From positions 1-40,203 of the forward strand of contig CALWPV010000081.1 in assembly GCA_944383515.1 (NCBI GenBank): 40,203 bases of DNA. Direction: 5' to 3'. Positions within the stretch are counted from its first letter, which is position 1. Every line of letters starts with the position of its first letter. This stretch comes from an uncultured Clostridia bacterium (GTDB taxonomy: Bacteria; Bacillota; Clostridia; Lachnospirales; Bianqueaceae). The position numbers and the translations under genes were made by a program. A model generated the notes under the pieces. That model ran no database searches. It had not been told where the DNA came from and saw only the letters and a list, made by a program, of their open reading frames with translations. Below, piece by piece: positions 27,438 through 30,804 of this stretch.

Positions 27438-27958
27438 AACATCTGTATTTAATTGGTGGTACCATGGGCGTAGGAAAAACCCACACCTGTCAGCTCTTAA
27501 AAGAAAAACTGGATCGCAGTGTTTTTCTGGACGGCGATTGGTGCTGGGACGCGCATCCGTTTCAGGTTACCGAAGAAACCAAATCCATGGTGCTAGATAA
27601 TATAACATATCTTCTCCATAATTTTCTTCGCTGCTCAGCGTATGAGCATGTGATTTTTTGCTGGGTTATGCATGAGCAAAGCATTATCGATACCCTATTG
27701 GACCGGCTGCGCCGGCAGGGAGATCTGGACGCGGCAGCGCTGCACTGCATTTCGCTAGTATGCACGCCGCGGGCGCTGGAAGCAAGGCTGCGGTGCGACG
27801 TAGCGCGTGGCGCCCGAAAAGAAGAGGTTATTGTCCGCAGCATAGCACGCCTACCTCTGTACCAAAAGCTGCACACGGCACTGCTGGACGTATCGGATCT
27901 TACCCCGGAGGCAGCGGCCGAAGCCATTCGGGAGGGGGCGCTCCATGGATCGATGTGA
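27434..27958 (+). CDS. P-loop nucleotide kinase-like ATPase
   Basis: A 174-residue protein with Walker A GGTMGVGKT (residues 8-16) and a Walker-B-like Asp in VFLDGDWCW (about 31-39). The central VIFCWVMHEQ and C-terminal Arg-rich region (RLRCDVARGARKEEV) resemble the lid of small-molecule kinases of the AAA_33/shikimate-kinase-like group. It probably phosphorylates a small metabolite or a nucleoside; the substrate is unknown. It is translationally coupled to rlmH (ATGA overlap) and to the following Cys-rich gene (14-nt overlap). Confidence 0.8.
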   Translation: MKHLYLIGGTMGVGKTHTCQLLKEKLDRSVFLDGDWCWDAHPFQVTEETKSMVLDNITYLLHNFLRCSAYEHVIFCWVMHEQSIIDTLLDRLRRQGDLDAAALHCISLVCTPRALEARLRCDVARGARKEEVIVRSIARLPLYQKLHTALLDVSDLTPEAAAEAIREGALHGSM

Positions 27959-28118
27959 GCAGTGCCTGTATTATGAGTATGACGATCTGTACGACTGCTA
28001 CACCTGCAGTATGGATTTAGATCAGGACGAGATGGAGCTATTTCTCCGCGGCCGGATGCAGCACTGTCCGTTTTTTCAGCCGGGAGACGAATACCAAATT
28101 GTGCGAAAGCAAATGTAA
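27945..28118 (+). CDS. Small Cys-rich protein, DUF6472-like (57 aa)
   Basis: The ATG at 27945 lies 5 nt after GGAGGGGG and the frame ends at TAA 28118. The product begins MDRCEQCLYYEYDD and ends DEYQIVRKQM. It has CxxC (Cys4, Cys7), then CYTC (about 18-21), an acidic MDLDQDEME stretch, and HCPFF. This pattern of two Cys pairs, LDxDE, CPxF and a C-terminal VRKQM matches, from memory, a family of small clostridial proteins named DUF6472, possibly metal-binding. It overlaps the kinase gene by 14 nt and precedes the redox fusion gene by 40 nt. Confidence 0.8.
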   Translation: MDRCEQCLYYEYDDLYDCYTCSMDLDQDEMELFLRGRMQHCPFFQPGDEYQIVRKQM

Positions 28119-28158
28119 CATAGAGAATCTAAAAATCACTAAAGAAGGAGGAAAGTCT

Positions 28159-30747
28159 ATGAAACTACTTATTATTGGCGGCGTAGCTGCCGGAACCAAG
28201 GTGGCAGCCAAGTTTAAACGCCTGGATCGCAGCGCCGAGGTTACCCTCATTACCAAGGATCGTGATATTTCTTACGCTGGCTGCGGACTGCCCTATTATG
28301 TGGGCGGCGCCATTGCAGAGCGCAGCGATCTCATTGTGAATACGCCGGCGCGATTTGCCGCGCTGACCGGAGCTACCGTACTGACCGGCCGGGAGGCTGT
28401 GGCGCTTAATGCGCAGGCGCAAACCGTAACCGCTACCAACCTAGAAACCGGCGAACAAGAAACCTACGCCTACGACGCCTGCGTGATTGCCGTAGGAGCC
28501 TCGGCCGTGGTTCCGCCGCTGCCTGGCGTAAAGCTGCCCGGCGTTTTCAAAATGCGCACCCCCGACGATGCAACCGCTATGCGCTCCTATGTGCAAGACA
28601 GCACGCATAGCGTGAAAAAAGCCGTTGTGGTCGGCGCCGGCATGATTGGCCTGGAGGCGGCCGAAAACCTGCAGGCTCAGGGCCTGACTGTGACGCTGCT
28701 GGATATGGCGGGTCAGATTCTTCCGGAAGCGCTCGATGAAGAGCTGGCCGCTTACGTGCAAAAACATTTACAAAAGAAAGGCATCAACGTGCTGACCGCT
28801 ACCAAGCTGGAACAGCTGGAAGGGGAAGAGCGCGTTACGGCAGTGAAAACCAGCGCCGGTACGCTGCCCGCCGATCTGGTTGTTATGGCTGTGGGCGTGC
28901 GTCCCAATACCGCCTTTTTACAAAGCAGCGGACTGCATATGGAAAAGGGTTTGGTAGTAGTCGATAGCGAGCTGCGCACTAGCCTTCCTCATGTGTATGC
29001 CGCCGGAGACTGCGTGCTGGTGAAAAACCGTATGACCGGCGCGCCGCAGTGGTCGGCCATGGGGTCTTCGGCCAATTACGAAGGCCGCACGCTGGCACAG
29101 GTGCTGGCAGGCCAAAACAAATCCTATCCCGGCGTTCTCGGAACCGGCATTGTTAAAATTCCCGATTTGAATGTTGGGCGCACCGGTCTTAGCGAGAAGC
29201 AGGCCGGCGAGGCTGGGTATGCCGTCATTTCCGCTGTGAGCGTGGTAAATGATAAAGCGCATTACTACCCTGACGCTTCGAATTTTATTGTAAAATTAGT
29301 GGCTGACCGCGAGTCGCATAAGCTGCTGGGCGCGCAAGTGCTTGGCTCCGGTGCCGTCGATAAAATGATTGACGTGGCGGTAACCGCGATTTCATTGGGC
29401 GCCCGCTTAGAAGACTTCGACAATATGGATCTGGCCTATGCGCCGCCGTTTTCCACCGCGATTCATCCGCTGGTGCAGGCCGTGTATATTTTGGAGAATA
29501 AGCTGCAAGGCGATCTCGTGAGCATGACGCCGGCCGAATACCGTGCGGGCAGAGCCGAAGGGTATACGGTGGTCGATGTCGATACCGTGAATGGCATTGT
29601 AGGCGCGCCGCGCCTTTCGGTGGCTACGCTCAATGGGCCGGTAGCCGAACTGGATAAAGACGCCAAACTGCTGCTTGTATGTAATCGTGGACGCGGCGCG
29701 TATTTGGCGCAAAATCGCTTGCGCTCCTTTGGTTACACCCATACGGTGGTTTTGGAAGGCGGCCTGGCCGTAAACGACGTAAAGGGGCCGGGCATTACGT
29801 CTTCTGTATCGCCGGAAGACATTACCCGCGTAAAAGCGCTTGGCTTTTTACAGGATAAGAATACGAAGGACTGCTTTAACGGCCGCGTGATTACGCGTAA
29901 TGGTAAGATTACGGCAGAAGAAACCAAAGCGATTGTAGAAGCGGCCGAGCGGTTTGGTTCTGGCGAGATTGCCATGACGTCTCGTTTGACTATTGAAATT
30001 CAAAAAGTACCCTATGCGAATATTGAGCCGCTGCGCAGCTATTTGGCCCAGTTTGGGCTGGAAACAGGCGGTACCGGTTCTAAAGTACGCCCCGTCGTGT
30101 CCTGCAAAGGCACCACATGTCAGTATGGCCTCATTGACACCTTCGGCTTGTCTGAGAAGATTCACGAACGGTTCTATCACGGCTACGCCGGTGTGAAGCT
30201 GCCGCATAAGTTTAAAATTGCCGTGGGTGGCTGCCCGAATAACTGTGTGAAACCGGACTTAAACGACTTAGGTGTGATTGGACAGCGCGTGCCGCAGATT
30301 GATCTTGATAAATGCCGTGGCTGTAAAGTGTGTCAGGTGCAAAACGCCTGCCCGATTCATGTTGCCAAAGTGGAAGACGGGAAGGTAGTCATTGATCCGG
30401 CGGCATGTAATCATTGCGGCCGCTGCCTGGGTAAATGTCCGTTCCATGCGATAGAGCAATATACCGGCGGCTATAAGATTTGTATTGGTGGGCGCTGGGG
30501 CAAACGCGTGGCGCAGGGACGCGCGCTGGAGCATATTTTTACCAGCGAGGAAGAGGTTATGGATGTAATCGAAAAGGCGATTTTGCTGTTCCGTGAGCAA
30601 GGCATTACGGGCGAGCGTTTCTCCGATACCATTGACCGCCTTGGATTTGAAAATGTGCAGCAGCAGCTCATGAGTAACGACTTGCTGCAGCGAAAAGAAG
30701 AAAACCTGGCGGCGCAGCGCCATTTGAAAGGCGGCGCAACCTGCTAA
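28159..30747 (+). CDS. CoA-disulfide-reductase-like flavoprotein fused to rhodanese, sulfite reductase and ferredoxin domains
   Basis: An 862-residue cytoplasmic fusion. Residues 1-440 are an FAD/NAD(P) disulfide oxidoreductase (GGVAAGTKVAAK, GAGMIGLEAAE, VYAAGDC) with the CoA-disulfide-reductase Cys42 in AGCGLPYY. Residues about 460-545 are a rhodanese-like domain with Cys508 (VCNRGRGAY). Residues about 570-710 are a siroheme sulfite/nitrite reductase half: Cys649-x4-Cys654 (SCKGTTC) and Cys692-x3-Cys696 (GCPNNC). Two ferredoxin-type clusters follow (CRGCKVC...ACP and CNHCGRCLGKCP), then the reductase C-terminus. AAGGAGG precedes the ATG, favouring 28159 over an upstream frame opening. Electron flow NAD(P)H to FAD to Fe-S to siroheme for sulfur reduction or persulfide handling is inferred. 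A strong terminator follows. Confidence 0.9.
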   Translation: MKLLIIGGVAAGTKVAAKFKRLDRSAEVTLITKDRDISYAGCGLPYYVGGAIAERSDLIVNTPARFAALTGATVLTGREAVALNAQAQTVTATNLETGEQETYAYDACVIAVGASAVVPPLPGVKLPGVFKMRTPDDATAMRSYVQDSTHSVKKAVVVGAGMIGLEAAENLQAQGLTVTLLDMAGQILPEALDEELAAYVQKHLQKKGINVLTATKLEQLEGEERVTAVKTSAGTLPADLVVMAVGVRPNTAFLQSSGLHMEKGLVVVDSELRTSLPHVYAAGDCVLVKNRMTGAPQWSAMGSSANYEGRTLAQVLAGQNKSYPGVLGTGIVKIPDLNVGRTGLSEKQAGEAGYAVISAVSVVNDKAHYYPDASNFIVKLVADRESHKLLGAQVLGSGAVDKMIDVAVTAISLGARLEDFDNMDLAYAPPFSTAIHPLVQAVYILENKLQGDLVSMTPAEYRAGRAEGYTVVDVDTVNGIVGAPRLSVATLNGPVAELDKDAKLLLVCNRGRGAYLAQNRLRSFGYTHTVVLEGGLAVNDVKGPGITSSVSPEDITRVKALGFLQDKNTKDCFNGRVITRNGKITAEETKAIVEAAERFGSGEIAMTSRLTIEIQKVPYANIEPLRSYLAQFGLETGGTGSKVRPVVSCKGTTCQYGLIDTFGLSEKIHERFYHGYAGVKLPHKFKIAVGGCPNNCVKPDLNDLGVIGQRVPQIDLDKCRGCKVCQVQNACPIHVAKVEDGKVVIDPAACNHCGRCLGKCPFHAIEQYTGGYKICIGGRWGKRVAQGRALEHIFTSEEEVMDVIEKAILLFREQGITGERFSDTIDRLGFENVQQQLMSNDLLQRKEENLAAQRHLKGGATC

Positions 30748-30753
30748 ATTTGT

Positions 30754-30797
30754 AAAAAGGCTGTCAGAAGGCTCAGAAACCTTCGGGCAGCCTTTTT
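30754..30797 (+). terminator. Intrinsic terminator after the fusion oxidoreductase
   Basis: AAAAAGGCTG (30754-30763) pairs perfectly with CAGCCTTTTT (30788-30797), with a further inner stem AGAAGG/CCTTC. The arm ends in a T-run. Confidence 0.9.
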
Positions 30798-30804
30798 GAC
30801 TATA

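Follow-up and report, generated by a model that had tools for sequence, protein, structure and literature searches.

CoA-disulfide reductases (CoADR) joined to a rhodanese, including Npsr, are recognized by an FAD/NAD module with a single redox cysteine and an interface tyrosine, and by a C-terminal rhodanese with its own cysteine. All of these were found in an 862-aa protein encoded in the window (the whole 40,203-nucleotide stretch analyzed here, from an uncultured Clostridia bacterium). Residues 1-540 resemble AfNpsr (6pfz), B. anthracis CoADR-RHD (3icr) and E. faecalis CoAPR (8a56) in fold (Z 41-43), redox cysteine, interface tyrosine and rhodanese cysteine. The protein scored 395.8 bits against the NCBIfam CoA-disulfide reductase model TIGR03385, of which the cut-off is 578.8 bits. 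In contrast to the CoADR-rhodanese proteins, the chain extends into a siroheme half.

The second half has its own set of described relatives. It shares with the C-terminal half of Fsr (7np8, 7npa) the siroheme domain, the 2x[4Fe-4S] insert and the four Arg/Lys residues of the sulfite site, but differs in having C-x4-C where Fsr has C-x5-C, the CoADR-rhodanese module in place of the N-terminal F420H2 oxidase domain, and an additional cysteine tail at the C-terminus. AsrC, a group III Dsr-like protein, is alike in size and layout. On the other hand, the score against AsrC TIGR02912 was far below the cut-off (99.7 versus 324.1 bits), no AsrA or AsrB partner was seen adjoining the family gene, and the AsrC-like neighbours have C-x5-C (CVGNRVC). 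The large subunit of NirB also joins a pyridine-nucleotide flavin module to a siroheme half, but the window protein has a CoADR-type module with an active cysteine, a rhodanese where NirB has BFD, and the 2x[4Fe-4S] insert; the cut-off of NirB TIGR02374 was not reached (222.9 versus 578.4 bits). Finally, DsrC carries a flexible C-terminal cysteine arm, so that DsrAB and DsrC together offer the siroheme sulfite site and the arm, whereas in the window protein the arm and a persulfide reductase lie on the reductase chain itself. Judged from its sequence, the enzyme is a combination of known kinds, in which CoADR-rhodanese is followed by a siroheme half of the Dsr/Fsr type. No paper on the four-module protein was found in the open-access literature.

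Gene and module layout

The gene is one uninterrupted frame with its own ribosome binding site and terminator (Table 1). The earlier note had read four modules in a single chain, in the order CoADR, rhodanese, siroheme half and 2x[4Fe-4S], and both Pfam and the structure alignments agree with this order. Pfam placed Pyr_redox_2 at residues 1-293 (1e-64), Pyr_redox_dim at 334-436 (2e-20), NIR_SIR_ferr at 572-630 (2e-11) and NIR_SIR at 640-838 (2e-31), the last with two Fer4 motifs within. The Rhodanese match at 484-536 was weak by itself (5e-4); as a whole, residues 1-540 align to 6pfz, 3icr and 8a56 with E-values of 1e-89 to 1e-93. The predicted structure matched 6pfz with a Z of 43 over 529 residues. 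The structure-based alignment covered residues 1-453 well, and the siroheme half was assigned from sequence profiles; the model is of low confidence at the siroheme loop (648-659) and the C-terminal tail. The ferredoxin-type insert comes after C-x3-C, as it does in the C-terminal half of Fsr.

A 57-aa cysteine-rich ORF (27945-28118), starting MDRCEQCLYYEY, stops 40 bases 5' of the 862-aa gene. The same genome also encodes an unfused CoADR-rhodanese paralogue of 563 aa that is 36% identical (G000:C79:7126-8721).

Table 1. Positions of features in and around the 862-aa gene (window coordinates) and of candidate importers in relatives (locus coordinates)
Feature	Position	Strand	Basis
Whole gene: CoADR/persulfide reductase, rhodanese, siroheme reductase half with 2x[4Fe-4S]	28159..30747	+	ATG to stop
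Ribosome binding site AAGGAGG, 7 bases 5' of ATG	28145..28151	+	read by eye
CoA-disulfide/persulfide reductase module, aa 1-436, FAD/NAD and dimerisation domains	28159..29466	+	Pfam, structure matches
Cys42, redox cysteine adjoining FAD in CoADR/Npsr	28282..28284	+	invariant 55/55
Rhodanese module, about aa 450-540	29506..29778	+	weak Pfam; alignment to 6pfz, 3icr up to aa 537
Rhodanese loop C508-N-R-G-R-G513	29680..29697	+	alignment of 55 homologues
Nitrite/sulfite reductase ferredoxin-like half domain, aa 572-630, holds Arg609	29872..30048	+	Pfam
NIR_SIR siroheme/4Fe-4S domain, aa 640-838	30076..30672	+	Pfam; nearest structures Fsr 7npa/7np8
C-x4-C (C649KGTTC654), probable ligands of siroheme-coupled cluster	30103..30120	+	homologue alignment
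C-x3-C (C692PNNC696), other half of siroheme-cluster motif	30232..30246	+	homologue alignment
Two 4Fe-4S motifs, Cys 719, 722, 725, 731 and 750, 753, 756, 760	30313..30438	+	Pfam, alignment; insert position as ferredoxin of Fsr
Cys862, final residue, flexible GGATC tail	30742..30744	+	tail survey; model pLDDT <50
Intrinsic terminator immediately 3' of the gene	30753..30798	+	hairpin and T-run, -25.7 kcal/mol, z -5.1
Candidate importers (Peripla_BP_2, FecCD, ATPase)	L018:5562-8431; L043 from 10643; L114:9482-12156; L176:6104-9435		
Candidate importers (Peripla_BP_2, FecCD, ATPase)	L122:9326-12102; L156:5171-8614; L157:5829-9956; L174:5735-8493	-	

Conservation of catalytic residues

In 55 full-length proteins, all of the catalytic residues checked were invariant with the sole exception of rhodanese-loop position 513. 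The invariant set comprises Cys42, Tyr369/370/427, Cys508 and Cys862, the siroheme-cluster cysteines 649/654/692/696, the eight ferredoxin cysteines, and Arg609, Arg644, Lys684 and Lys686. Cys42 corresponds to the active-site cysteine of AfNpsr (PMC7969121). The four positively charged residues expected of a Dsr/Fsr-type sulfite site align, respectively, with Arg355, Arg423, Lys460 and Lys462 of MjFsr, which are sulfite ligands in the crystal structure (PMC10229431). The siroheme site claimed in the earlier note is supported by the sequence. The spacing of C649KGTTC654, described there as one residue short of the usual C-x5-C, was confirmed and is kept throughout the family as CKGTTC or close variants; the family departs from the canonical C-x5-C-xn-C-x3-C by this spacing and retains all four cysteines. 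C-x5-C is kept in a 290-aa relative (CQGxxxC).

The invariance bears on a simpler account of the enzyme, in which CoADR would act as an NADH dehydrogenase only, electrons would pass from FAD through the ferredoxin clusters to siroheme as in NirB or Fsr, and Cys42, the rhodanese and Cys862 would be idle in sulfite reduction. In NirB as well as Fsr, a flavin module is attached to a siroheme half, and the ferredoxin insert is like that of Fsr. However, electron transfer alone would need neither Cys42, the CoA-site tyrosines, Cys508 nor Cys862, yet all of them are invariant, and no BFD domain was among the 25 Pfam matches listed. We regard this account as rather unlikely.

The exceptional position lies at the end of the rhodanese loop, where 54 of the 55 proteins have Arg and only the window protein has Gly. 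The equivalent Arg of yeast RDL2 is essential for thiosulfate cleavage (PMC8533005), and Gly513 possibly means that this activity has been lost from the window protein. This matters for a second alternative, a thiosulfate/polysulfide reductase in which the rhodanese would accept sulfane sulfur, CoADR would reduce the sulfur, and the siroheme half would reduce the freed sulfite. A rhodanese acting with an Asr-type sulfite reductase has been proposed for the use of thiosulfate in Halanaerobium (PMC5497025), and the family loop CAKGKR is similar to CAKGVR of RDL2 (PMC8533005). Nevertheless, the window protein lacks the very Arg that RDL2 needs, and the siroheme half stands alone in some relatives, leaving this route improbable.

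Distribution and phylogeny

A search for the full-length architecture, which the earlier note had proposed as a check, recovered the same fused chain in more than 60 other species, some of the loci ending at a contig edge; in all, the scan (one genome per species) yielded at least 80 matching loci. The family is found in Oscillospiraceae, Lachnospiraceae, Megasphaera and relatives. A congener (G001) has a copy that is about 72% identical. This copy and the spread over more than 60 species rule out a lone or chimeric ORF or an assembly join. In about 20 species, mostly Lachnospiraceae, the same protein is encoded by an adjacent gene pair (540 aa and 316 aa), mostly with 24-240 bases between.

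When 96 siroheme halves were placed on a tree, stand-alone forms fell outside or were basal, except one (L119) that was placed inside; the two-gene clade came next, and the fused forms made up one well-supported group. The simplest reading, with the root placed by midpoint only, is that stand-alone halves gave way to paired genes and these to a single fusion. The existence of stand-alone siroheme halves implies that the reductase does not need the CoADR-rhodanese module.

In the gene neighbourhoods of relatives, LysR and YeiH (PF03601) genes are recurrent. A gene of the YeiH-type putative sulfate exporter family lies directly 3' of several siroheme halves (e.g., L044:10626-11672 and, on the minus strand, L157:659-1723), and such a neighbour possibly points to sulfite or sulfate traffic. 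No nitrate or nitrite genes were noticed beside the family gene near 80 loci. Related enzymes use the same residues for nitrite reduction, and these residues do not discriminate sulfite from nitrite; a siroheme nitrite reductase detoxifying nitrite or NO has to be considered. The fused persulfide module and the neighbourhoods both argue against it; we regard it as very improbable, and sulfite is probably the main substrate.

The C-terminal cysteine tail

The C-terminus reads GGAxC in 75 of the 76 siroheme halves that are fused to, or encoded directly after, a CoADR-rhodanese module, and the one exception (L081) looks truncated or frameshifted. The stand-alone halves end earlier and none of the 9 has the tail; five more apparently lone halves with a tail were fused genes cut at the locus edge and were left out of this count. 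On the tree, the link between tail and module comes down to a single gain with no more than one joint loss, hence one or two evolutionary events. The terminal cysteine appears and disappears together with the persulfide reductase, suggesting that sulfur moves between the two halves. A sulfur-carrying arm at the C-terminus is thus the mechanism that we favour, at slightly less than an even chance. Besides DsrC, mammalian thioredoxin reductase with its C-terminal arm offers a further parallel to the Cys862 tail.

Siroheme supply

The earlier note had reported no siroheme synthesis genes in the window, and we noticed none there either. The absence of the pathway from the genome, which it had named as the result that would speak against a siroheme enzyme, was not borne out. 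In the genome (2.34 Mb, 98% complete), a single CobA scored above cut-off, as part of a CobA-HemD gene adjoining hemC near a contig end (C64). A homologue of the precorrin-2 dehydrogenase TIGR01470 (SirC), also above cut-off, lies at the edge of another contig (C49). In the congener, sirC-hemC-cobA/hemD are contiguous. The window protein is the only PF01077 match found in the genome and hence the only candidate user of this siroheme of the sulfite/nitrite-reductase type that was found. In relatives, hemA-sirC-hemC-cobA/hemD-hemB-hemL directly adjoin the family gene; the same gene set is the siroheme cluster of Ruminococcus bromii (PMC6378601). Altogether, CobA or the candidate importer described below is present in 93 of the 95 genomes with the family.

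The unusual C-x4-C spacing could be taken as a sign of a vestigial half without cofactor. However, the spacing and the ligands are invariant in the family and nearly all of the genomes have CobA or the candidate importer; residue invariance and the siroheme genes of this genome speak strongly against the idea, and we give it almost no weight. We consider that the 862-aa protein very probably depends on siroheme.

A candidate importer in relatives

Downstream of the siroheme gene, many relatives encode a Peripla_BP_2 lipoprotein, an FecCD permease and an ATPase, which together are the parts of an FecCD-type ABC importer. In a first set of 50 genomes, none of the 18 with this arrangement had CobA above cut-off, whereas 29 of the other 32 did (Fisher 7e-11). 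A profile of the binding protein (A3), run on 66 genomes, matched in 26/26 without CobA versus 8/40 with CobA. In a held-out set, for which the prediction had been written beforehand, the importer was present in 10/12 genomes without CobA versus 5/17 with CobA (p 0.008); as the hypothesis was chosen on the first set, this p is the fair value, weakened further by relatedness. Pooled over genomes with this siroheme half, the counts are 36/38 versus 13/57, and in genomes without CobA the importer usually adjoins the siroheme half. The siroheme-half tree shows 14 changes of CobA status, of which 7 or more lie on branches with good support. Independent contrasts point to the link between CobA absence and importer by 4.8 to 0.5 but are too few to reach significance (median p 0.125).

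An order-wide survey of 176 genomes detected a strong binding protein (E <1e-90) in 11 of the 17 genomes with a sulfite-reductase half (SIR) but no SirC, 5 of the 47 with both, 1 of the 15 with SirC only, and 2 of the 97 with neither. These counts indicate that the importer does not merely follow the loss of tetrapyrrole synthesis. Among the six SIR-positive, SirC-negative genomes without a strong match (G025, G055, G074, G083, G092 and G101), G025 has a weaker one (3e-73) directly 3' of the SIR gene and G055 has one at 2e-58.

The BtuFCD, heme and siderophore ABC importers share PF01497, FecCD and the ATPase with this transporter, but the latter tracks siroheme enzymes in genomes that lack siroheme synthesis and does not track B12 auxotrophy. 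Of the genomes with CobA, the importer occurs in 3/16 without CbiF and 10/41 with CbiF, and a search of 16 loci from relatives yielded no cobalamin riboswitch; both results disfavour a B12 importer. Import of heme or generic iron, though chemically conceivable, leaves the linkage to SIR, SirC and CobA unexplained, and import of a sulfur oxyanion fails to explain the absence of the transporter where CobA exists, or why it is linked to SirC and CbiK (L174, L176). Another, distinct binding protein (c22, Faecousia) was kept separate, as those genomes have CobA.

The other neighbours of the importer have to do with siroheme as well. They include sirC, either within the operon or following it (L047, L077, L176), and sirC-cobA after it (L156, L157; as a fused gene in L155). 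The importer was also seen with cysDN-type sulfate-assimilation operons holding another sulfite-reductase subfamily (L180, L181 and, more distantly, L179). In L180 and L181, a C-x5-C siroheme half of about 290 aa lies in an operon read as ApsA-ferredoxin-CysD-CysN-SIR-ThiF-JAMM, with the importer after it. Names such as Cbi, CysDN and ThiF were assigned by reading the sequences, not from profile matches. In G060 (L174), which has no match to a sulfite-reductase half or SirC, the importer is just upstream of a run read as CbiK, CbiD, CbiL and CbiF. A similar B12 cluster occurs in G148, a genome with neither a CobA nor a SirC match, and there the importer lies elsewhere (L147, L148). These clusters appear to start at CbiK, and both organisms possibly make B12 from imported sirohydrochlorin. 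The substrate of CbiK is sirohydrochlorin, which makes it as good a candidate cargo as siroheme. We therefore propose the transporter as a candidate importer of siroheme or a close precursor, an assignment that these gene associations make fairly likely. No description of a siroheme uptake system was found in the open-access literature. Salvage of tetrapyrrole precursors is known for B12 (PMC6461909); that paper's passages on these precursors name no transporter for them, and siroheme is never mentioned in it.

Proposed function

Our best explanation, at about an even chance, is a cytoplasmic, NAD(P)H-driven and siroheme-dependent sulfide-forming reductase with a built-in sulfur carrier, its siroheme being made in the cell by HemC, CobA-HemD and SirC. 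NAD(P)H would reduce FAD in the CoADR/Npsr module, as shown in homologues. Sulfite would be reduced at the siroheme-[4Fe-4S] half by electrons arriving through the two ferredoxin clusters, as the Fsr-type residues suggest. Zero-valent or persulfide-level sulfur would leave the siroheme, or come in on the rhodanese Cys508, and the flexible Cys862 and/or CoA would bring it to Cys42, where H2S would be released. The scheme would be like the DsrAB/DsrC pair, with the carrier cysteine and the final reductase in the same chain. Many of the CobA-less relatives probably take up siroheme, or its precursor without iron, through a dedicated FecCD-type transporter.

This explanation is drawn from the residue invariance in 55 proteins, the recurrent fused or adjacent pairing in Lachnospiraceae and Oscillospiraceae, the GGAxC tail that accompanies the module, the siroheme genes nearby in relatives and in the genome, the presence of CobA or the candidate importer in 93 of 95 genomes, and neighbourhoods with recurrent LysR and YeiH but no nitrate/nitrite genes noticed. 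Against it stand the similarity of the catalytic residues for sulfite and nitrite, an electron path from FAD to [4Fe-4S] that is not seen in CoADR homologues, the one or two evolutionary events behind the link of tail and module, the stand-alone siroheme halves, and the low model confidence at the siroheme loop and tail. The sequence supports the earlier note in assigning a siroheme site to one chain together with NAD(P)H oxidation and persulfide transfer. Its self-contained sulfide-producing machine is an inference: the electron route from FAD to the clusters is uncertain, relatives divide the work between two genes, and the window protein has Gly513. The wider picture, a sulfite reductase that channels sulfur through a DsrC-like arm to its own NADH persulfide reductase, together with a siroheme/sirohydrochlorin importer in gut anaerobes, is more tentative and falls somewhat short of even.

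Implications

Sulfide of gut bacteria is usually attributed to Dsr and Asr enzymes. The family described here scores below the cut-offs of curated Dsr/Asr models and has probably been missed in surveys using them, though it is present in Lachnospiraceae, Oscillospiraceae and Megasphaera. The importer is also a candidate route of supply to the "tetrapyrrole precursor salvagers" of PMC6461909. If the importer reading is true, siroheme would be a shared, tradable cofactor like B12, and gut anaerobes would run sulfite reductases without making siroheme; CobA-less strains should then need siroheme, or a producer strain, for sulfite reduction.
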